Assembly: GCF_002256775.1 (NCBI RefSeq)
Contig: NZ_NCII01000043.1
Span: 1-35,661 of the forward strand
Length of the DNA: 35,661 nucleotides
Source: Novosphingobium sp. 17-62-19
Lineage (GTDB): Bacteria > Pseudomonadota > Alphaproteobacteria > Sphingomonadales > Sphingomonadaceae
Direction: 5' to 3'
Under the pieces are notes generated by a model, which had not been told where the DNA came from, ran no database searches, and was given only the letters and a program-made list of their open reading frames with translations. How positions within the stretch are numbered: position 1 is the stretch's first letter; each line of letters begins with the position of its first letter. Shown piece by piece: positions 26,309 to 35,661 of this stretch. The translations under genes and the position numbers were made by a program.

Positions 26309-27130
26309 ATGACCGTCCGCCTCGACAGCAGCCTTGCCTGGAAAACCGCCACGCGCCTTGTCGCCACCAACCGTGATGTGCTGATCGCGATTGCGGGGGT
26401 GTTCTTCTTGCTGCCCAGTCTTGCGTTCTCGGTGTTCGTGCCTGAACCACAGATGGCACCGGGCACACCGCCGGGCGAAATGATGGAAAAGATCGCCGAT
26501 ATGTGGACGGCCTCGATGCCCCTCCTGATCGTCGTTACGCTGCTGCAAATGGCTGGCACCGTCACCATGCTGATTGTGATGACGGACCGCGCCCGCCCGA
26601 TGGTGGGACAGGCGATTCGCCGGGGCTTTCTGGCGCTCGGTCCCTATGTGCTGGCGCAGATCATGGTTGGCGCAGCACTTGGCATGGGCTTTCTTGTACT
26701 GGTGAGCGCGGCAGCGCTGACCGGGCAACAAGCGATTGGAGCCATTGTCATCATCGGCGCGTTCATCGCGATGATCTGGTGCAGCCTGCGCATGGCGTTG
26801 GTCGCGCCGGTGCTGGCGATTGAGGCAGAGCGCAACCCGGTGCAGGCACTGAAGCGGTCGTGGGCGTTGACCAAGGGCAATTCCGGCCGGATGCTGGCCT
26901 TCTTCATGCTGGCAGGGCTGCTATTCGCCGTCGTCTATGGCCTTGCCATGATGCTGGTGGGCGTGGTGCTGGTGCTGACCACTGACGGCGGGATCCAGCA
27001 AGTGTTGACCGCAGCCGTTTCCAGCACGCTGACGGCAGGCGCACTGGTCTATTTCGTGGCGATACTGGCGGCGGTATATCGGCAACTGGCCGGCGACACT
27101 GCTGACGAAATTGGCGACATCTTCGGCTGA
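26309..27130 (+). CDS. Multi-pass membrane protein of unknown function
   Basis: A 273-residue integral membrane protein with about six hydrophobic segments (around 25-43, 68-90, 107-135, 140-165, 195-222 and 235-260). The segment [32 protein letters not shown] is typical of proteins resembling the membrane domain of glycerophosphoryl diester phosphodiesterases and related DUF families. No catalytic domain is attached. Start ATG 26309 follows a clear agaggagcgcc ribosome binding site. It is divergent from lipB by about 100 bases and convergent with the methyltransferase gene (19 bases between stops), so it is probably a single-gene unit. The role cannot be assigned. Confidence 0.75.
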
Positions 27131-27149
27131 AGTGCCAGAAGCTGGAAGA

Positions 27150-27776
27150 TTATTCCTTCCAGCCCCAGCTGATCACGCAGGGCGGCACGTTGACCGGTTC
27201 GAACCCCTTGTCGATGCGGCGGAAGAACTGGCCCATCAGATCGCGCGCACGCGCCGTGTACTGATAAACGAGGAACGCGCCACCGGGACGCAGCACACGA
27301 TGCGTGGCACCCATGATGGCTGGGCCGACACCTTCAGGAAGGTTCGAGAAGGGCAGGCCCGAAAGCACATAGTCGGCATGATCGAAGCCGTTTTCCCGGA
27401 CGATCTCTTCCACGTCGGACGCCGAACCATTGACGGCGATGAATCGGCTGTCACCGATGGTCTTCTGCAGATACTCGATGAAATCCGGGTTGGTATCGAT
27501 CACGATCAACCGGCCATCGCGGCGCAGCTTTTCCAGCACCGGGCGGCAGAATGTGCCCACGCCGGGGCCGTATTCCACGAAAAGGCGGCATTCTTCCCAA
27601 TCAACCACCGACAAAACCCGCTCAATCGTGCGGTTTGACGACGGGACAATCGCGCCGACCATCGCCGGGTGCTTGAGGAAGCCCTTGAAGAAGATTCCGG
27701 CTGGGCCGAGCAGGCGTTCCGCCTTGCGCTTTGCCCGCTGGAGAAGGGGTTCGCGCGCAACCTGGGTCGAAGTCAT
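27150..27776 (-). CDS. PmtA-like SAM-dependent methyltransferase
   Basis: A 208-residue Rossmann-fold methyltransferase. SAM motif I is FVEYGPGVGTFCRPVLE (66-82), followed by LIVIDTNPDFIEYLQ (acidic SAM-binding Asp), a DYVLSGLPFSNLPEG motif in place of NPPY, and VLRPGGAFLVYQYT. The N-terminus FFKGFLKHPAMVGAIVPSSNRTIERVL is the signature of the small phospholipid N-methyltransferase group (Rhodobacter PmtA type). That group turns phosphatidylethanolamine towards phosphatidylcholine. The substrate remains inferred. Start ATG 27776 is chosen; an ATG at 27827 would overlap the divergent MFS gene. A perfect eight-pair hairpin (27141-27148 with 27156-27163) spans its stop codon, without a T-tract. 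Confidence 0.78.
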   Translation of the reverse strand: MTSTQVAREPLLQRAKRKAERLLGPAGIFFKGFLKHPAMVGAIVPSSNRTIERVLSVVDWEECRLFVEYGPGVGTFCRPVLEKLRRDGRLIVIDTNPDFIEYLQKTIGDSRFIAVNGSASDVEEIVRENGFDHADYVLSGLPFSNLPEGVGPAIMGATHRVLRPGGAFLVYQYTARARDLMGQFFRRIDKGFEPVNVPPCVISWGWKE

Positions 27777-27825
27777 TGCAGGAAGATGTCCTCTGCCGGT
27801 CAGAATAGCTGCTGCAGGATCGGAC

Positions 27826-29157
27826 ATGAACGAAGGCCCAATACGCCTGCCGAAGGAGCGAATGGCGCTACTGTTTGCGGTCATGCTGGTGACGGCGGCA
27901 GGCAATACTGCGATGCAATCGGTCATGCCTTCAATCGGCACGCGGCTCGGCATTGCCGACGTTTGGGTGAGCCTTGCCTATTCATGGTCGGCGCTGTTGT
28001 GGATGCTGATGGCCCCGTTCTGGGCACGCCGATCAGACCGGCGCGGGCGCAAGGCAATGATGGCACTGGGGGTGATCGGGTTCATCCTCTCGTTCACGTT
28101 GTGCGGCATAATTCTCCATTTCGGTCTCAATGGTTGGTTCAGCGCGGTTATGACGATGAGCCTGTTTGCGCTGGCACGATCATTTTACGGACTGCTGGGT
28201 TCAGCCGCGCCGCCTGCGGTTCAGGCCTACGTCGCCAGCCGCACCGGACGCGCGGATCGCACGAAGGCGCTTTCGCTCGTGGCCTCAAGCTTTGGCCTTG
28301 GCACCGTGCTTGGCCCCGCGTTGGCGCCGCTGATGATTCTGCCGGGTATGGGACTGGTAGGGCCATTCGTGATTTTTGCAGCGATGGGCGTGATCGTGCT
28401 GGTACTGCTGCGCACACGCCTGCCCAATGATGACCCTCGCTTTGCGGCGCGGGGCGAAGTTATGGCGGCACCATTCAGTGCATCATCCAACCCGCGAATG
28501 CCCGATGATGATGAGGGGCACCCCGACGGATCGCCCGATGAACTGCCCGCCGCCGAACCGCTACATGCCGGTGCTGACCGGCTACGCTGGTCGGATCGCC
28601 GCCTGCGCCCGTGGTTGTTGGCGGGGCTGATCGGTGGCCATTCACAAACCATGGTGCTGGGCGTGATTGGCTTTCTGCTGCTCGACCGTCTGGGTCTGCG
28701 CGGTGATCCCGATGCGGCAGCAGGACCAGTCGGGCTTGTGCTGATGGCAGGCGCAGCAGCGACTTTGCTGGCACAATGGGGGCTGATCCCGATGCTGAGC
28801 ATGGGGCCGCGCACATCGACGCTGTGGGGCATGGGGCTGGCCGCATTTGGCATCCTGCCCATCGCGGTCGGCCAGGATCTTCACACCATTGCAGTCGGCT
28901 TTGCCATTGCATCACTGGGCTTCGGAATGTTCCGCCCCGGCTTTACATCGGGCGCAAGCCTTGCGGTAAGTCCGGGCGAACAGGGTCAGGCGGCGGGGGT
29001 TGTGACTTCAGTCAACGGCGCGGCCTATATTGTGGCTCCGGCTATCGGCGTATTGCTCTACAATCACTCACCTTGGGTTGCGTGGGGTGTGATGGAAGCG
29101 CTGGCGATTTCGGTGGTGATCTTGTGCGTGTTCACACTACGCAAGGACCAGGTGTAA
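27826..29157 (+). CDS. MFS transporter
   Basis: A 443-residue inner-membrane carrier with about 12 hydrophobic segments in two halves. The MFS loop signature between segments 2 and 3 is visible as APFWARRSDRRGRKAMMALG, and the antiporter-like segment 5 motif as GLGTVLGPALAPLMI. A long acidic central loop (MPDDDEGHPDGSPDELPAAEP) joins the halves, as is usual, but is enlarged. The arrangement resembles drug-efflux or multidrug carriers of the 12-segment group; the substrate is unknown. Start ATG 27826 follows AGGAT. It is divergent from the methyltransferase gene, with 49 bases between starts, and precedes the flippase gene by 41 bases. Confidence 0.88.
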   Translation: MNEGPIRLPKERMALLFAVMLVTAAGNTAMQSVMPSIGTRLGIADVWVSLAYSWSALLWMLMAPFWARRSDRRGRKAMMALGVIGFILSFTLCGIILHFGLNGWFSAVMTMSLFALARSFYGLLGSAAPPAVQAYVASRTGRADRTKALSLVASSFGLGTVLGPALAPLMILPGMGLVGPFVIFAAMGVIVLVLLRTRLPNDDPRFAARGEVMAAPFSASSNPRMPDDDEGHPDGSPDELPAAEPLHAGADRLRWSDRRLRPWLLAGLIGGHSQTMVLGVIGFLLLDRLGLRGDPDAAAGPVGLVLMAGAAATLLAQWGLIPMLSMGPRTSTLWGMGLAAFGILPIAVGQDLHTIAVGFAIASLGFGMFRPGFTSGASLAVSPGEQGQAAGVVTSVNGAAYIVAPAIGVLLYNHSPWVAWGVMEALAISVVILCVFTLRKDQV

Positions 29158-29198: not shown

Positions 29199-30683
29199 AT
29201 GGCGCAAGAGAACAGCTCCCAGAAAGTCATCGCGCGCGGGGCTGGCTCCAACGCGCTGAGCTTCGTGATCCGTTTCGCGGCTCGGGCAGGGTTTCTCTAT
29301 ATCGGCGCGCGGCTCTATGGCGCAGCGAACTATGGCGTGTTCACGATGGCGAGCGCGATGGTGGAACTGGCCGTTCCAGTCGCCAGCCTTGGCCTGAAGC
29401 GCATGATCTTCCCTTGGCTGGAGGAAGAGACACCCACTGGCAAACGGGCCACGCATGTCCTGCTTGACGCGCTGATGCTCGCACTGGTTGCAGGCGTGGC
29501 GGTATCGCTGATCATGATCTGCGGCGCTATGTTGCTGCCGCAAGGCGCGGTATCGGATGCGTTGCGGCTTGCCATCATGCTGCTCGCTCCCTCCGTTCTT
29601 GGCCAGATCACCGGAGACATCGCGCTCGCTGCCACACGCTGGACGCACAAGATGCGTTACGAAGTGATCGGACGCGGTTTGGTCGAACCTTATGCGCTGA
29701 CGGGCGTCGCGCTGGTAGCGTGGCACTTGGGGATGAACGACACCGGTATGCTGCTCGGTTATTGGGCCGGGTCGATTGCACTCGCAGTATTTTCGTTGTG
29801 GAGCGCTAGGGACTGCCTCGGCTCGCTGCATTTACGGCAGTGGCGGCCAAGCCCAGCAGCGCTGATTCGGCATGTGCAGGCCCTGATACCGGCGAGTGGC
29901 AGCGATTTCCTGACCACGCTGGCGCAGCGCATCGATCTCTACCTCGTCGGCTTCCTGCTGGGTGATGCGCCTGCGGGCGTCTACGGCGTGCTGCGCCAGT
30001 TGCGCACGCCGATACTGCAAGTGCGGCAGGCCTTTGACGGCATCCTGACCCCACTGACCGCGCGGACCATGCGCAGCGATGGCGATGTGGTGACCGGTGA
30101 AGCCACTGCCGCCGCAACGCGGGTTGTCCTTACGCTGCAACTGGGTGTTGTGCTGATGATGGCCGCAACTGGCGACTTGCTGCTCAGCCTGTTTGGAGTG
30201 CACCAGCCGGGTGCCTATGTAGCGCTACTGGCGATGCTGCTGGCCGAGACCGTCAACGGCGCGTTCGGGGTGTCCGAACTGATCCTATACTACCGTCGCC
30301 CAGCCCTCGCGCTTCAGGTCAACCTTGTCCTGATAGCAACAGCCGGTCTCGCCATCCCGCTCCTGACGCCTGACTATGGCATCGTCGGCGCGACAATTGC
30401 CATGTTGATTGCGGCACTGTTTGCGGCGGGCCTACGCCGCCATTGGTTGGTTGGGCTAGGCGTCAGACCACCGCTGCTTCATGCGTCTGTGCCCATTGCA
30501 GCGGCGAGCATCGCGGTGCTGATCGGCCGACAGAGTGCAACCATGCTGCCGCCATCATGGCCCGATCCCCTACGCGATGCTGCGCCTGCCCTCATCGCGC
30601 TGGCCCTCTACGCCTTGTTCGTAACCGCGTGGCGCAAAGCGCGGCCCGGTGTGCTTTCGCTCAACCAATATCGGATCAGCTGA
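29199..30683 (+). CDS. Wzx-like polysaccharide/lipid-linked flippase
   Basis: A 494-residue multi-pass membrane protein with about 12-14 hydrophobic segments. The N-terminus (GSNALSFVIRFAARAGFLYIGARLYGAANYGVFTMASAMVE), the repeated arrangement and the segment RIDLYLVGFLLGDAPAGVYGVLRQL are those of the MOP superfamily flippases (Wzx/RfbX, MurJ relatives) that move lipid-linked oligosaccharides across the inner membrane. No glycosyltransferase, polymerase or ligase gene is nearby, so it stands alone in the window. Its 3' end overlaps the convergent CDP-alcohol transferase gene by eight bases. Start ATG 29199. The substrate is unknown; nearness to the inositol-phosphate genes makes a lipid substrate worth considering. 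Confidence 0.83.
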   Translation: MAQENSSQKVIARGAGSNALSFVIRFAARAGFLYIGARLYGAANYGVFTMASAMVELAVPVASLGLKRMIFPWLEEETPTGKRATHVLLDALMLALVAGVAVSLIMICGAMLLPQGAVSDALRLAIMLLAPSVLGQITGDIALAATRWTHKMRYEVIGRGLVEPYALTGVALVAWHLGMNDTGMLLGYWAGSIALAVFSLWSARDCLGSLHLRQWRPSPAALIRHVQALIPASGSDFLTTLAQRIDLYLVGFLLGDAPAGVYGVLRQLRTPILQVRQAFDGILTPLTARTMRSDGDVVTGEATAAATRVVLTLQLGVVLMMAATGDLLLSLFGVHQPGAYVALLAMLLAETVNGAFGVSELILYYRRPALALQVNLVLIATAGLAIPLLTPDYGIVGATIAMLIAALFAAGLRRHWLVGLGVRPPLLHASVPIAAASIAVLIGRQSATMLPPSWPDPLRDAAPALIALALYALFVTAWRKARPGVLSLNQYRIS

Positions 30684-31644
30684 ACGCCGCCGATGCTGGC
30701 GGCGGCGGACCGTCCAGCCGCGAGGCTGTGGCCATTGCCGCACGATTATGCAGCTGGACCGAGATCACCAGCAGCACGTTCAGCACCACTGCCTGATAGA
30801 AGAAGTACCACACCGGGCTGCCAGCAATCATCGCAAAGCCCAGCACAATGGCGCGGGGATTCGGGCCAAGCAGCTTCAGAAAGCTTAGCAGCGGCTTCTG
30901 TTCGCGCGCCACTTCGGCCCGTATTGCCGCCAGCCGCGTGTCATCGCCCGATGCCATCGCCGCGCTGACCGCCGCGTCGATCTGGCGGGCGTGGGGGGTC
31001 ATCCCGGCAGCAAGGTGAAGATAACCGCGCGCAATCGGTTCGAACACGCGGGCGAAGATACCGCCCGAACCGAACAACCCGGAGCCGTTGTCCTTGGAAT
31101 TGTTCAGCCACGGCACGCCATAAGTCCAGTACTGATAGAACCGGCGCTGCACTTCGACATGGTTGGACTGCACGATGTGCGAAGCACCGGCCGCCAACGT
31201 CCAAGCCCATGCTTGCCCCGCGCCAATCTCCCGTGTCAGCACGAACGCCAACAGCACGTACAGCACGATGTGGCTGGCATAATCGCAAATTCCGTCGACC
31301 ATCTCGCCGATCGGGCTGGACCGCCCGGTGATGCGCGCCAGATCGCCGTCTGCGCCATCGACCACGTGCCAGCTCATGTGCAGCAGCAGCCCGAGCATCG
31401 CACCCCACGGCCAGCCGAGCGCCCAAGTACCGCCGGTGGCGTCCATGTTGAAATAGACGACGCCTGCTGCCACGACCAGCAATCCGCCGAACACTGACAC
31501 CATGTTGGGTGTCAGCGGGGTGTGCGCCAGCACCCGCGCCAGCCGCCATGCAAGCGGATGATAGAGGTGGAAATTCAGGCCATCCTGCATTTCGCGCGGG
31601 CGCTTTGGACGTTCGATCGTCCCCGCCCGTTTTGCCACGTTCAC
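30676..31644 (-). CDS. CDP-alcohol phosphatidyltransferase family enzyme 1
   Basis: A 322-residue membrane enzyme of the CDP-alcohol phosphotransferase family. The family signature is intact: D96-x2-D99-G-x2-A-R104-x8-G113-x3-D117-x3-D121, read as DGADGDLARITGRSSPIG followed by EMVDGICD. These Asp residues hold two metal ions and the CDP leaving group. About five or six hydrophobic segments follow LTPNMVSVFGGLLVVAAGVVYF. The C-terminal stretch (HARQIDAAVSAAMASGDDTRLAAIRAEVAREQKPL) is a soluble helical insert. Start GTG 31644 has a GAGGG site nine bases upstream. It is divergent from the second such enzyme (98 bases apart). The alcohol donor and acceptor are unknown. Confidence 0.85.
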   Translation of the reverse strand: MNVAKRAGTIERPKRPREMQDGLNFHLYHPLAWRLARVLAHTPLTPNMVSVFGGLLVVAAGVVYFNMDATGGTWALGWPWGAMLGLLLHMSWHVVDGADGDLARITGRSSPIGEMVDGICDYASHIVLYVLLAFVLTREIGAGQAWAWTLAAGASHIVQSNHVEVQRRFYQYWTYGVPWLNNSKDNGSGLFGSGGIFARVFEPIARGYLHLAAGMTPHARQIDAAVSAAMASGDDTRLAAIRAEVAREQKPLLSFLKLLGPNPRAIVLGFAMIAGSPVWYFFYQAVVLNVLLVISVQLHNRAAMATASRLDGPPPPASAAFS

Positions 31645-31742
31645 CCTTGCGATCCCTCTGCGATTGCCGTCTTGGCGCAACCGGTAGCCGTGTCTATAGC
31701 CCGTGGGAAGGGCTGGCGACGCACAGTAAAAGGCATACGCGC

Positions 31743-32840
31743 TTGATACCTCCGTTTTTCGTCGCAATTCCAGCAAGTTCGTATCTGAGGCGCCGAATTG
31801 GCGGCCTGACCGGAATCGCGCGCGGCGTGATTCTTGCTGATCTTGTGGGCGCGCAAGGCGTGTTCGTGATTGCTGACGGGCATATTGAAGAGGACTGGCA
31901 CAAGAGCTTTGCCCTGCGCGTTCGCCCCCTGCCGCAGGTAACTGTCATAGCCACACCAGCCGATATTCCGCCCGGCACCGCCCTTCTCCCGGCAGACGCG
32001 CTACCAACCAAGGCTGCGCTTGAGGCGCTGGTTCAAAATCCGGCGCTCGTGCTTGTGCGCGGTGACCCCCGCCTGATCCGCGAAGCAAACGATCACGCCA
32101 CGGTCATGACGCTGCTGCGCGCAACGCTGAAACCCACGGAAGGCCCGGTCGGCCGCTGGATCAACCGGCCAATCTCGTTTCGCATGTCCGCACTCGCGCT
32201 CAGGCTTGGCATTGGCCCTGACCCGATCACATGGTTCACGCTAGCACTGGCAATGGTCATGGCAGTGGTCCTTGGGCAGGGTGGCATGGAGTGGCTCGCG
32301 CTGGGTGGATTGCTGTTTCAGATCGTATCGGTCACCGATTGCGTCGATGGCGATATCGCCCGCGTTTCATGGGCGATGAGCAGACGCGGTGCCCTGCTTG
32401 ATACCGCTTGCGATACCGTGGCCAATCTCGGCTTCGTGATCGGGCTGATGACTGGTGTGATGCGGACATATGGGCTGCAATATGCGTGGATCGCGTTGGC
32501 TTGCGTGGTCCTGCTGGTTTGCGGAATCGTGGCGATGAGCATTCTCGTGCGCATTGGCCCGAAGCGCGGAAGCTTCGACGTTTTGCGCGCCGCGCTCACC
32601 CGCAGGCTGGAAGGGCGACCAATGTTGCAGGCCGTAACGCTGACAATCGAACGCCTGTTCAAACGCGATGTCTATGTGTTGGTTGCCTGTGGCTTTTGCC
32701 TTTCGGGCCTCGCCTGGGTACTGCCGGGAATGCTGCTGGGGGGCTTGTGCATCTGGCTTGGCGCGGTGGCATGGTGTGCACCGCTGATCGTGGCGGATAC
32801 CGAGGGCCTGCTGCTTCCGCCGCACATGCGCCAGTTATAA
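31743..32840 (+). CDS. CDP-alcohol phosphatidyltransferase family enzyme 2, with nucleotidyltransferase-like N-terminus
   Basis: A 365-residue protein with two parts. Residues about 130-365 are a CDP-alcohol phosphotransferase domain with five or six membrane segments and an intact signature: D199-x2-D202-G-x2-A-R207-x8-G216-x3-D220-x3-D224. The linker LLRATLKPTEGPVGRWINRPIS matches the one that joins the two halves of fused inositol-phosphate cytidylyltransferase/DIPP synthases. Residues 1-125 (RRRIGGLTGIARGVILADLVG, VFVIADG, IPPGTALLPADAL) look like a nucleotidyltransferase remnant lacking the AAGxG/K catalytic loop. A separate nucleotidyltransferase lies downstream. Start TTG 31743 is the only reasonable codon (AAGG 11 bases upstream), and the first in-frame ATG falls near residue 122. 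Confidence 0.83.
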   Translation: MIPPFFVAIPASSYLRRRIGGLTGIARGVILADLVGAQGVFVIADGHIEEDWHKSFALRVRPLPQVTVIATPADIPPGTALLPADALPTKAALEALVQNPALVLVRGDPRLIREANDHATVMTLLRATLKPTEGPVGRWINRPISFRMSALALRLGIGPDPITWFTLALAMVMAVVLGQGGMEWLALGGLLFQIVSVTDCVDGDIARVSWAMSRRGALLDTACDTVANLGFVIGLMTGVMRTYGLQYAWIALACVVLLVCGIVAMSILVRIGPKRGSFDVLRAALTRRLEGRPMLQAVTLTIERLFKRDVYVLVACGFCLSGLAWVLPGMLLGGLCIWLGAVAWCAPLIVADTEGLLLPPHMRQL

Positions 32841-32960
32841 GCGCTCACCTGCAAGATTGGCGTAACAGAAAGCCATCATAGTCTCTCCCCCCTTGCAGGA
32901 TGCCAAGGGTTCCCCCAAATTGGCGGTGATTTGATCCGCAACCGGGAACCGAGGCAACGA

Positions 32961-33671
32961 ATGATAGGCGTGATCCTGGCTGCGGGCCGCGGAAGCAGGC
33001 TTGGCGATGCGACTGAATCCCTGCCCAAGCCGCTGATGGCCGTGGCGGGGCGAACCTGCCTTGATTTTGCGATTGAGGCCCTGCTCGCAGTGGTGGAAAA
33101 TGCCGTTGTGGTCACCGGCTATCGCGCCGAACTGATCGAAGCTCACATCACGCGTGAATGGGCAGGTGCGCCGGTGCGCACCGTGCGAAACACCCAGCTT
33201 GAAGCCGGCAATCTGACATCGCTTGGCGCTGCACGGCCGTTGATCGGCACGGACGCGTTTGTGCTGACCAACGCCGACCACTTGTTTCCCGGCGACATGT
33301 ATACGCGCCACTTCGTCCCGTCGGCACAAGGGATCGGCATCGCCTGCGAACGCGAACGCCCAGTGCTGTCTGATGAAATGAAGGTGATCGAAAAGGACGG
33401 CCATCTCGTCGCGATCTCGAAAACCCTGCCAAGGTATGACGGGGCCTACATCGGTACGACTTTCGTCGCACAGGGCAGTCTTGGCGCATATTGGGACGCT
33501 TTTGACCGCGTGCAGCACAGCAGCGATACCGCGTCCGCCTCGGTCGAAATGGTGCTCGACGAGCTTGCGCAGACCGATGCGCCGCAAATCCATTGGCTAT
33601 CAGGCCTCAAATGGTTCGAGGTGGATACCCCCGAGGATCTGGCCGTTGCGCGCGAAAGCCTGACCGTATGA
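32961..33671 (+). CDS. Nucleotidyltransferase, candidate inositol-1-phosphate cytidylyltransferase
   Basis: A 236-residue soluble Rossmann-like nucleotidyltransferase. The nucleotide-binding loop is VILAAGRGSRL (4-14) with Lys23 in SLPKPLMAVAGRTCLD. The metal-binding Asp is Asp106 in VLTNADHLFPGDMY. The closing segment WFEVDTPEDLAVARESL is typical. This compact architecture is shared by phosphocholine cytidylyltransferases (LicC) and inositol-1-phosphate cytidylyltransferases. CDP-inositol is the favoured product because of the CDP-alcohol transferases before it and the inositol-phosphate synthase after it; that is inference. Start ATG 32961 has GAGG six bases upstream. Its TGA overlaps the next gene's ATG (ATGA), so the two are translationally coupled. 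Confidence 0.82.
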   Translation: MIGVILAAGRGSRLGDATESLPKPLMAVAGRTCLDFAIEALLAVVENAVVVTGYRAELIEAHITREWAGAPVRTVRNTQLEAGNLTSLGAARPLIGTDAFVLTNADHLFPGDMYTRHFVPSAQGIGIACERERPVLSDEMKVIEKDGHLVAISKTLPRYDGAYIGTTFVAQGSLGAYWDAFDRVQHSSDTASASVEMVLDELAQTDAPQIHWLSGLKWFEVDTPEDLAVARESLTV

Positions 33672-34351
33672 CGGCTGACGCTGCCAGTGCAGAAATAAAA
33701 GTGCTGGTATTCGACCTGGACGGCACACTTGTGCCGACGATGGAAGACTATGCAGACCATGCCGCACAGCTGATGGAAGAGGCTTTCGGCACACCCTTTG
33801 TGCAAGCGCGACGTTCATACTTCGCCACGTCCGGGCTGCCTTTCGAACGCCAACTACGCCAACTCTATCCGGGGCAGGAAACCGATTCCGTGGCCGAACG
33901 GTTCGAAGCGTGGAAGGACGGCTACCTTTCGGGAATCGCCATTTCGCCAGCGGTTGCAAACCTGCTGGAGGGTTGGCGCAATGAAGGCCTGCTGGTCGCA
34001 ATCTCATCCAACAACCTCGAAGTCTATGTTGAACGTCTGGCGCAAGACTGGCCGGTCGATTGCGCATTTGGCTATCGCGCCGCCTGTGAAGGTGATCCAG
34101 GCTTTGCCAAGGGCGAGGCGCATTTTGCTGCGCTCGAAAAGCGCTTTGGCATTTCCCGCTCTGCATTCTTGTTCACCGGAGATTCACCCAACGACGCGCA
34201 AATCGCCGCAGCGGCCGGGGTGCGGTTTCGCGCATTGCTGACCGATGCGTTCTGTGCGGACGATTTCGAGAAGGCTGTGTCGGGAACCCGCACGATCTCC
34301 TCGCTTGCGGAGATTGGTGGCATATTTGCCACTGTTATGGCAAACGGGTAA
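33668..34351 (+). CDS. HAD-family phosphatase
   Basis: A 227-residue haloacid-dehalogenase hydrolase. Motif I is VFDLDGTLVP with nucleophile Asp16 and acid/base Asp18. Motif II is the ISSNN serine near 113, motif III is Lys148 in GFAKGEAHF, and motif IV is FTGDSPNDAQIA with Asp172 and Asp176. The helical cap between residues 25 and 95 is of the phosphoglycolate-phosphatase/beta-phosphoglucomutase type. It is cytoplasmic. Its ATG overlaps the nucleotidyltransferase stop by four bases (ATGA), so the two proteins are made together. In an inositol-phosphate pathway it could dephosphorylate a phosphorylated transfer product or an inositol phosphate; this is inference from context only. Confidence 0.85.
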   Translation: MTADAASAEIKVLVFDLDGTLVPTMEDYADHAAQLMEEAFGTPFVQARRSYFATSGLPFERQLRQLYPGQETDSVAERFEAWKDGYLSGIAISPAVANLLEGWRNEGLLVAISSNNLEVYVERLAQDWPVDCAFGYRAACEGDPGFAKGEAHFAALEKRFGISRSAFLFTGDSPNDAQIAAAAGVRFRALLTDAFCADDFEKAVSGTRTISSLAEIGGIFATVMANG

Positions 34352-34635
34352 CAGTTTGCGATTGGTATGTGGAAACGCACTATCGCATGGTGCATTTTTC
34401 GGTTAAGGGCCGCGTCCCATCGGAAGATGCTGTCTCTTGCGCGCCTGCCTGTCAGTGCTGCGCAGGGCACAGGGTGCGGACAAGGAGCGCGGAAAACACG
34501 ATCGGTATCGCCGGTCTATCTCGCGTTTCCTCATGACCAACTGAGGAATCGGCTTGCATTCGATGGCATTTCGGTATTTTGAGGCAGTTTGATTACAGAC
34601 GCTCTGATGCGCCTGTCTGATAGGGATCGTTATTC
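34352..34635 (+). other. Leader region before the inositol-phosphate synthase gene
   Basis: These 284 bases have no credible gene; a 71-codon frame at 34367-34582 looks spurious (Arg/Ser-rich, no family features). A weak promoter candidate is ttgcat at 34554-34559 and tatttt at 34575-34580, with a short 15-base spacer. I saw no riboswitch or terminator I could support. It is the longest gap between genes in the window and suggests that the synthase gene has its own control. Confidence 0.35.
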
Positions 34636-35661
34636 ATGAAGCCAATCAAGGTCGCCGTGATCGGCGTGGGCAACTGCGCTAGCTCGCTGGTGCAAGGTGT
34701 AGCCTACTATCGCAACAACAATTCGTCGCAAGGGCTCATCCACGACCGTATTGGCGGGTATGGCGCCGGTGACGTCGATTTCGTGCTCGGCGTAGATGTC
34801 GATGCACGCAAGGTCGGCAAGGACATTGCCGAAGCCATCTTCGCAGCTCCGAACAACACCACCGTGTTCCAGGCCAATGTGCCTATGACCGGTGCGAAGG
34901 TCATAATGGGCCGCGTGTCGGACGGTGTTGCCGCGCACATGACCACGGTCGGCGAAAAGGGCTTTATCGTTGCTGACGAAGCCGAAGCCACCCAAGAGAG
35001 CATCGTCAAGGCCCTGAAGGAAACCGGCGCCGAAGTGCTGCTCAACTTCCTCCCCGTCGGGTCGCAGGAAGCCACCGAATTCTACATGGAATGTGCGCTT
35101 GAAGCCGGCGTTGCCGTCGTCAACTGTATGCCGGTGTTCATCGCTTCGACCCCGGAATGGGAAGCGAAGTTCCGCGACAAGCGTATCCCGATCGTGGGTG
35201 ATGACATCAAGGCACAGGTTGGCGCCACGATCGTCCACCGCGTTCTTTCCAGCCTGTTTGCGGCACGCGGCGTCAATGTCGAGCGCACGTACCAGCTCAA
35301 CACCGGCGGCAACACCGATTTCATGAACATGCTCGACCGTCAGCGTCTGGGCAGCAAAAAGGAATCGAAGACCGAAGCAGTGCAGGCCATGCTGGCCACG
35401 CGCCTGGCGGACGAGAACATCCACGTTGGCCCTTCGGACTATGTTCCTTGGCAGAAGGACAACAAGCTGTGCTTCATCCGCATGGAAGGCCAGCAGTGGG
35501 GCAACGTTCCCATGAACCTCGAACTGCGCCTCTCGGTTGAAGACAGCCCGAACTCGGCGGCGTGCGTGATGGACGCGATCCGTTGCTGCAAGGTTGCGCT
35601 TGATCGTGGTGAAGGTGGTGCGCTGATCGGCCCGTCGGCCTACTTCTGCAAGCACCCGCCG
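34636..35661 (+). CDS. ino1: myo-Inositol-3-phosphate synthase, partial at the window end
   Basis: The frame opens at ATG 34636, with an agggat ribosome binding site, and runs open to the last base (342 residues so far). It therefore lacks a stop and continues outside the window. The enzyme turns glucose-6-phosphate into inositol phosphate with NAD. It shows the NAD-binding start KVAVIGVGNCASSLVQGV, then GDVDFVLGVDVDARKVGK, EVLLNFLPVGSQEATEFYME, VNCMPVFIASTPEW, the catalytic KRIPIVGDDIKAQVGATIVHR, LNTGGNTDFMNM and SYVPWQKDNK-like segments. The size and motifs fit the shorter archaeal and actinobacterial type rather than the long eukaryotic form. It follows the transferase/nucleotidyltransferase/phosphatase genes on the same strand. 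Confidence 0.94.
   Translation, partial: MKPIKVAVIGVGNCASSLVQGVAYYRNNNSSQGLIHDRIGGYGAGDVDFVLGVDVDARKVGKDIAEAIFAAPNNTTVFQANVPMTGAKVIMGRVSDGVAAHMTTVGEKGFIVADEAEATQESIVKALKETGAEVLLNFLPVGSQEATEFYMECALEAGVAVVNCMPVFIASTPEWEAKFRDKRIPIVGDDIKAQVGATIVHRVLSSLFAARGVNVERTYQLNTGGNTDFMNMLDRQRLGSKKESKTEAVQAMLATRLADENIHVGPSDYVPWQKDNKLCFIRMEGQQWGNVPMNLELRLSVEDSPNSAACVMDAIRCCKVALDRGEGGALIGPSAYFCKHPP

Follow-up and report, generated by a model that had tools for sequence, protein, structure and literature searches.

Inositol lipids are rare in bacteria. For hyperthermophiles, Jorge, Borges and Santos reportedly described in 2015, as cited, a CDP-inositol route to inositol phospholipids. The products of this route are dialkyl ether lipids (PMC9246714). 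The same article proposed in 2022 that in some Bacteroidetes an NTP transferase makes CDP-inositol for a CDP-alcohol transferase, an unproven pathway, and a review treats it as predicted and not fully characterised (PMC10191378). Novosphingobium acidiphilum has a phosphoinositol-dihydroceramide-like lipid, and is described as being without homology to both known clusters (PMC9246714). Here we analyse a gene cluster at the end of a 35,661-nucleotide stretch of DNA from Novosphingobium sp. 17-62-19 (the window), which is the complete contig C79 of the source genome (G000; 3.8 Mb, 149 contigs). The cluster is organized around a CDP-alcohol phosphotransferase (AT1), an inositol-3-phosphate synthase (MIPS) and a nucleotidyltransferase (NTPT2). 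Judging from the sequences, it probably makes an inositol-containing membrane lipid through CDP-inositol.

Layout of the cluster

Open reading frame (ORF) and family scans recovered, within 30676-35661, the five genes named in the original prediction: two CDP-alcohol phosphotransferases (AT1 and AT2), a nucleotidyltransferase (NTPT1), a HAD-superfamily phosphatase (HAD) and MIPS. The four co-directional genes and the ATGA overlap that it described were also found, the NTPT1 stop being joined to the HAD start at 33668-33671. AT1 lies on the minus strand at 30676-31638 (PF01066, E=1e-9) and MIPS on the plus strand at 34636-35661 (PF01658, E=3.3e-36; TIGR03450, E=1.5e-120), where it is cut by the contig end. 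Contig C123 shares 85 identical bases with the window end; it completes MIPS to 366 aa and then carries NTPT2, outside the window (L033:15268-16020, minus strand). The corresponding stretch lies on a single contig in G018, G028 and G009, with the same gene order. Because this order is kept in these genomes, and in part at other loci, chance does not account for the grouping.

The long ORFs of AT1, which opens at 31776, and AT2 (31509-32840) overlap because mechanical starts were used. Starts at 31638 and 31713, guessed from conservation, would make the two genes a divergent pair about 75 bases apart. By eye, AT1 and AT2 keep D-x2-D-G-x2-A-R-x8-G-x3-D-x3-D, NTPT1 contains LAAGRGSRL and HAD contains DLDGTL. 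The source genome encodes four PF01066 proteins: AT1, AT2, one PgsA and one without an NCBIfam name.

AT1, MIPS and NTPT2 form the constant part of the locus

Co-occurrence was scored in 99 Novosphingobium genomes, counting six AT1 matches no better than E=7.6e-7 as absent. AT1 and MIPS were found together in 65 genomes and both were missing from 30; MIPS occurred alone in 4 and AT1 alone in none. NTPT2 (E<=1e-30) was present in 64 of the 65 genomes with AT1 and MIPS, and in the 65th (G056) it runs off the contig end. All three core genes were found in 64 of the 99 genomes. At the same threshold, 118 of 195 Novosphingobium genomes contain NTPT2.

A survey of the locus itself covered 64 of the 65 Novosphingobium genomes with strong AT1 matches (G038 was left out, and G022 was excluded for its weak AT1 match). 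MIPS scored above 240 bits inside the examined stretch at 57 of the 64 loci. About 8 kb separate it from AT1 in G361, G371, G354, G355 and G373, with both genes still on one contig; G353 carries it on a different contig, and in G351 the contig ends within it. The gap between AT1 and MIPS is about 7 kb in G050 and G020, where the intervening genes resemble chromosomal flanks, as an inversion would leave them. At loci L108 and L109, the AT1-MIPS interval holds, by eye, nadA-like, MFS and ene-reductase-like genes that also resemble chromosomal flanks, as though an adjoining block were inverted.

The other genes were far less regular. AT2 scored above 50 bits at 26 of the 64 loci, in a long form of the window type at 8 and in a short form at 18; the 38 loci without such a match include G043 and G369, which have a weak second CDP-alcohol transferase. 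NTPT1 and HAD were found at 6 loci (G000, G018, G028, G009, G384 and G368), always with the long AT2. HAD accompanied NTPT1 at every locus where NTPT1 was found, and no HAD relative was detected in the examined stretch at 58 of the 64 loci. Thus, the constant part of the cluster is AT1, MIPS and NTPT2; NTPT1 with HAD is a rare add-on and AT2 a commoner one. Of the five genes first proposed as a unit, AT1 and MIPS belong to the core, whereas AT2, NTPT1 and HAD are accessory.

The core recurs in other lineages of the order

Of 296 genomes sampled throughout the order, 78 contain AT1, 101 contain MIPS and 76 contain both, within 8 kb on one contig in 60 of these 76. The two genomes with AT1 only are 83% and 69% complete. 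We then asked for NTPT2 in 20 chosen genomes: 8 of the 16 in which AT1 is not close to MIPS, and 12 with MIPS and no AT1 (8 of the 25 such genomes of the order sample, together with the 4 from Novosphingobium). NTPT2 was present in seven of the eight genomes with AT1 away from MIPS (E<=7.3e-38), the exception being G066. It was not found in any of the 12 genomes with MIPS and no AT1, beyond three weak matches (4.5e-11 to 5.0e-10).

Among named genomes, the best 80 of 249 relatives were scanned. Nearly all are Sphingomonas, including S. koreensis, S. parapaucimobilis, S. sanguinis and S. yabuuchiae; neither N. acidiphilum nor S. paucimobilis is among the 80. The order AT1-MIPS-NTPT2 was observed at 77 of these 80 loci, L197 being cut by the contig start and L258 having NTPT2 first, and AT2 was matched at one. 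Gene order is therefore conserved across relatives, a check that the original prediction had proposed. In other lineages of the order, all or most of the trio is accompanied either by a flippase or by glycosyltransferases together with a KpsM/Wzt-like exporter.

The MIPS family search matched 6 of 14 control genomes, including Bacteroides ihuae, Thermotoga maritima and Corynebacterium glutamicum. MIPS genes without an adjoining AT1 or NTPT2 were seen at L275 (7605-10309), L184 (G025), L185 (G037) and L186 (G366). On a plasmid of Sphingomonas sp. LK11, a mechanosensitive channel gene follows MIPS. Sphingomonas-type clusters were also seen at L200 and L230, whose records bear the organism names Arthrobacter sp. 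TPD3018 and Microvirga sp. SRT01; these names are probably wrong.

NTPT2 is the better candidate cytidylyltransferase

NTPT2 matched NF041135, the model of the archaeal IPCT/DIPP synthase, at E=5.8e-25, and its top three PDB matches were 2xme (E=5.8e-14), 4mnd (E=3.3e-13) and 4jd0 (E=5.8e-12). In common with known inositol-1-phosphate cytidylyltransferases it has N(G/A)xS, (V/I)Dxx-A-T/S, IGK and DxG stretches, which we infer to touch the inositol phosphate. NTPT1 (32961-33671, plus strand; ORF 32931-33671; PF12804, E=1.9e-16) is a paralogue that matches the same families (PDB 2xme, E=3e-13). It keeps GNxxSL and the lysine of IGK (as ISK), and its VDxxAT and DxG stretches are altered or not kept. 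In a tree of 85 rows, NTPT1 and NTPT2 are split (support 99/97); of 83 sequences, 3 were removed because they lacked the start pattern, and more distant NTPT1-like matches were not included. The branches leading to the three references are long, 2.5 to 9.6 changes per column, and the tree is uninformative on substrate.

Keeping more of the motifs, NTPT2 appears to be the better candidate for an inositol-1-phosphate cytidylyltransferase. NTPT1, at 6 of 64 loci only, was set aside as the core enzyme. In the exception G066 (95% complete), AT1 adjoins NTPT1 and HAD, MIPS is on another contig and no NTPT2 was found; there NTPT1 and HAD seem to replace NTPT2. This arrangement makes it likelier that NTPT1 also serves inositol transfer, despite its changed motifs. 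The expectation that the window's own nucleotidyltransferase is the cytidylyltransferase thus has to be shifted towards NTPT2, although G066 suggests that NTPT1 can serve AT1.

AT1 and AT2 are different transferases

A profile of 52 AT1 sequences best matched choline/ethanolaminephosphotransferases (E=3.2e-8), with AF2299 close behind (E=1.6e-7). An AlphaFold2 model of AT1 (pLDDT 86) retrieved AF2299 first in Foldseek (4o6m, TM score 0.49, E=1.9e-4), then phosphatidylinositol-phosphate (PIP) synthases and cholinephosphotransferases, matches that speak to the fold family only.

AT2 (31713-32840, plus strand, start guessed; PF01066, E=3.1e-9) matched NF041135 at ORF residues 202-333 (E=3.3e-16; 59.3 bits, below the cut-off of 580) as well as PDB 4o6m and 4mnd. 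Its membrane part would be DIPP-synthase-like and preceded by an N-terminal part that has diverged. By eye and by analogy, this N-terminal part may be cytidylyltransferase-like. AF2299 and AfDIPPS have an N-terminal cytidylyltransferase-like domain and a pocket that fits soluble CDP donors (PMC4634129). The GxGxR motif was not seen by eye in the N-terminal part of AT2, and a profile comparison of AT2 with NTPT2, from which a too strict pattern had dropped 9 of 26 AT2 sequences, gave a probability of 14.5. The AT2 model was poor (pLDDT 48, from a two-sequence alignment).

A predicted route to an inositol lipid

The following pathway may be suggested. MIPS converts glucose-6-phosphate to inositol phosphate, as established for its family. 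NTPT2 would combine inositol phosphate and CTP into CDP-inositol, a role predicted from its family, motifs, linkage and co-occurrence. AT1, on the grounds of family, linkage and co-occurrence, would then transfer inositol phosphate from CDP-inositol to diacylglycerol or ceramide, yielding phosphatidylinositol or phosphoinositol-ceramide. AT2, and NTPT1 with HAD, would be accessory modules adding a second CDP-alcohol-dependent transfer, and the Wzx-like flippase of some clusters could conceivably flip the lipid, or a glycan assembled on it, to the other side of the membrane. Since most clusters examined are without HAD, this phosphatase does not seem to be needed for the last step. Conservation and co-occurrence support the original idea of a MIPS-linked CDP-inositol pathway that relatives share, and among the products then considered a membrane inositol lipid is the likeliest.

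Both acceptors have something to recommend them. Novosphingobium is listed as a sphingolipid producer (PMC10626005) and this, together with the N. acidiphilum lipid, makes ceramide attractive. Phosphatidylinositol is among the polar lipids of Pseudoblastomonas, of the same order (PMC12210278), so that diacylglycerol fits as well. A more specific, tentative proposal, which we would not favour as it stands, is that AT1 is a CDP-inositol:ceramide inositolphosphotransferase, making phosphoinositol-ceramide in one step with neither a phosphatidylinositol intermediate nor an Aur1-type synthase, while AT2, NTPT1 and HAD make a second inositol phosphodiester, first in phosphorylated form and then trimmed. 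PAP2_3, the only PAP2 family searched, was unmatched in 4 of 7 genomes, including the source genome and one core-bearing Sphingomonas, which agrees with this proposal. Against it, the cluster-bearing G028 has a clear PAP2_3 match, and two more genomes matched below the cut-off.

Several observations weigh against an inositol lipid made by this core, or against its link to the N. acidiphilum lipid. NTPT2 at E<=1e-30 is missing from 77 of the 195 Novosphingobium genomes. The Fisher values for AT1 and MIPS (2.3e-21 in Novosphingobium, 8.5e-46 in the order sample) overstate independence, the genomes being related. NTPT2 is not strictly tied to AT1: in G093 (71% complete, AT1 not found) a nucleotidyltransferase adjoins MIPS, and at the named locus L260 NTPT2 has neither AT1 nor MIPS in the preceding 8 kb, the contig ending just after. 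Moreover, the search for NTPT2 in MIPS-only genomes of the order sample covered 8 of 25. At the protein level, NTPT2 reaches 88.1 of 580 bits for NF041135, below a cut-off that one domain is unlikely to reach in a two-domain model. AT1 shows no clear preference, in sequence or fold, between CDP-polar-donor and CDP-diacylglycerol enzymes, and scores 28.7-39.6 of the 170-180 bits set for PI-P and archaetidylinositol-P synthase models. The NTP transferase of Bacteroides is distantly similar to the sphingomonad one, and the HAD protein of the Bacteroides finegoldii cluster (see below) was unmatched by the sphingomonad HAD profile (7 sequences) at E<=0.01. Finally, an inositol-1-phosphate cytidylyltransferase is also the best structural match of CpgD from Caulobacter, an enzyme that acts on phosphoglycerate (PMC12275187); because of this precedent, the substrate of NTPT2 cannot be read from family rank alone.

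Other explanations of the cluster

The best-surviving rival, which we consider improbable, is a soluble or glycan-linked inositol phosphodiester, either a solute resembling di-myo-inositol phosphate or a surface polysaccharide bearing inositol phosphate. AT2, working with a cytidylyltransferase, would be its main maker, and HAD would complete it. All four AT2-type proteins scanned, from four genera, indeed have their best NCBIfam match in the DIPP-synthase half of NF041135, and NTPT2 matches the other half; in some relatives the cluster is bordered by flippases, by glycosyltransferases and by a KpsM/Wzt-like exporter. However, AT2 is unmatched above 50 bits at 38 of the 64 Novosphingobium loci and matched at 1 of the 80 named ones, HAD is present at 6 of 64, and the constant transferase, AT1, is a different one. 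Di-inositol phosphate is known from thermophiles; the sphingomonad lineage is not known to be thermophilic. Di-myo-inositol phosphate was therefore not retained as the main product (AT2 at 26 and HAD at 6 of 64 loci). A new phosphodiester had been among the products first envisaged, and a solute of the di-myo-inositol-phosphate kind is unlikely as the general one because NTPT1 with HAD, and AT2, are accessory.

Less probable still is the mycobacterial and B. thetaiotaomicron type of route, in which AT1 or AT2 would be a CDP-diacylglycerol-dependent PIP synthase and HAD its phosphatase. Both transferases match PIP and archaetidylinositol-P synthase models, but weakly and far below the cut-offs; for the CDP-diacylglycerol-dependent PIP synthase model NF045883, with a cut-off of 170 bits, AT1 scored 31.3 and AT2 46.1. 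On these scores we set this route aside. It would need no cytidylyltransferase, yet NTPT2 goes with AT1, and it requires a phosphatase, yet 58 of the 64 loci have no HAD relative in the examined stretch, although an unlinked phosphatase could serve.

That NTPT2 and AT1 act on another alcohol phosphate, MIPS reflecting a different use of inositol, has the CpgD precedent (PMC12275187) and the breadth of the nucleotidyltransferase family in its favour but is very improbable, as AT1 is nested in MIPS-bearing genomes (65 of 65; 76 of 78), also where the two genes are unlinked, and the best matches of NTPT2 are inositol-phosphate enzymes.

Neighbouring genes

The remaining accessory genes of the window are HAD (33668-34351, plus strand; ORF 33593-34351; PF00702, E=1e-13) and a Wzx-like flippase of the polysaccharide biosynthesis family at 29199-30683 (plus strand; PF01943, E=3.3e-9), found above 240 bits at 12 of the 64 loci. 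Upstream, window 26309-27953 encodes a methyltransferase, which may be a phospholipid N-methyltransferase, and a membrane protein whose match to the GDPD membrane domain only just passes the cut-off. The DNA of this region is similar in G018 and G028, and partly in G009.

In G200, Pfam and NCBIfam matches place AT1, MIPS and NTPT2 next to glycosyltransferases, a Wzz-like protein and a KpsM/Wzt-like exporter (L158, 5590-14790); in G108 (L155) they adjoin glycosyltransferases and exporter genes by eye. These neighbours hint at a possible connection of the inositol lipid or phosphate with a surface polysaccharide.

Comparison with known systems

An inositol lipid made through CDP-inositol, our preferred reading, places the cluster closest to the alternative Bacteroides inositol-lipid cluster, which we compared through B. 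finegoldii and two other Bacteroidetes rather than B. vulgatus itself. In a plasmid collection, AT1 relatives were found in four records: B. finegoldii, Parabacteroides distasonis, Phocaeicola massiliensis and S. parapaucimobilis; the Bacteroidetes records look like pieces of chromosome. By annotation, the B. finegoldii order is MIPS, NDP-sugar synthase (NTP transferase), hypothetical protein, CDP-alcohol transferase, LPG-synthase-like protein and HAD, and it matches the alternative cluster of PMC9246714. The systems share their logic and kinds of gene, MIPS in sphingomonads also lying near an NTP transferase and a CDP-alcohol transferase. The transferases are homologous over most of their length: the B. 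finegoldii protein aligns with AT1 ORF residues 45-345 at 26% (E=4e-15 in the plasmid collection; E=3.8e-27 over a 308-column alignment, against a seven-protein set only). In contrast, MIPS is distantly similar (23% over 256 aa), the sphingomonad loci are usually without HAD and may add AT2 (26 of 64) or a flippase, and the cluster of the window showed no LPG-synthase-like gene. In P. distasonis (L271, 5810-8743) the AT1 relative lies with an adenylyltransferase/cytidyltransferase-family gene, an SDR gene and a lysophospholipid acyltransferase gene, possibly a phosphoethanolamine-lipid module, a context that would fit an AT1 family taking CDP-activated headgroups.

The hyperthermophile route, by its description, likewise relies on a CDP-inositol donor to form its inositol lipid. 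NTPT2 resembles the cytidylyltransferase half, and AT2 the transferase half, of the archaeal IPCT/DIPP synthase (NF041135; 2xme, 4mnd) and AF2299 (4o6m). Unlike these, sphingomonads use two separate genes plus AT1, the N-terminal part of AT2 has diverged, and scores are far under the cut-off. CpgD, which makes CDP-glycerate for ceramide diphosphoglycerate in Caulobacter, is also a nucleotidyltransferase that activates the polar group of a bacterial sphingolipid, but as described it acts on another substrate (PMC12275187).

Among the matches listed in the literature search, PMC9246714 alone treats inositol lipids of sphingomonads and none describes the sphingomonad version of the cluster; a term search for inositol in two papers on Novosphingobium or Sphingomonadales glycosphingolipids (PMC13318209, PMC13028669) gave no match. 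The core, conserved in Novosphingobium, in Sphingomonas and elsewhere in the order, offers a compact, testable set of candidate genes for the phosphoinositol-ceramide-like lipid of N. acidiphilum, and so a candidate answer to the published puzzle of a lipid without known genes. To call it an undescribed system, as was first done, is too strong, since PMC9246714 proposed the same logic for some Bacteroidetes. All together, the cluster is not categorically new: its logic dates from that 2022 proposal, and the sphingomonad version differs in its MIPS, its cytidylyltransferase, the usual absence of HAD and the frequent presence of a second transferase or a flippase.

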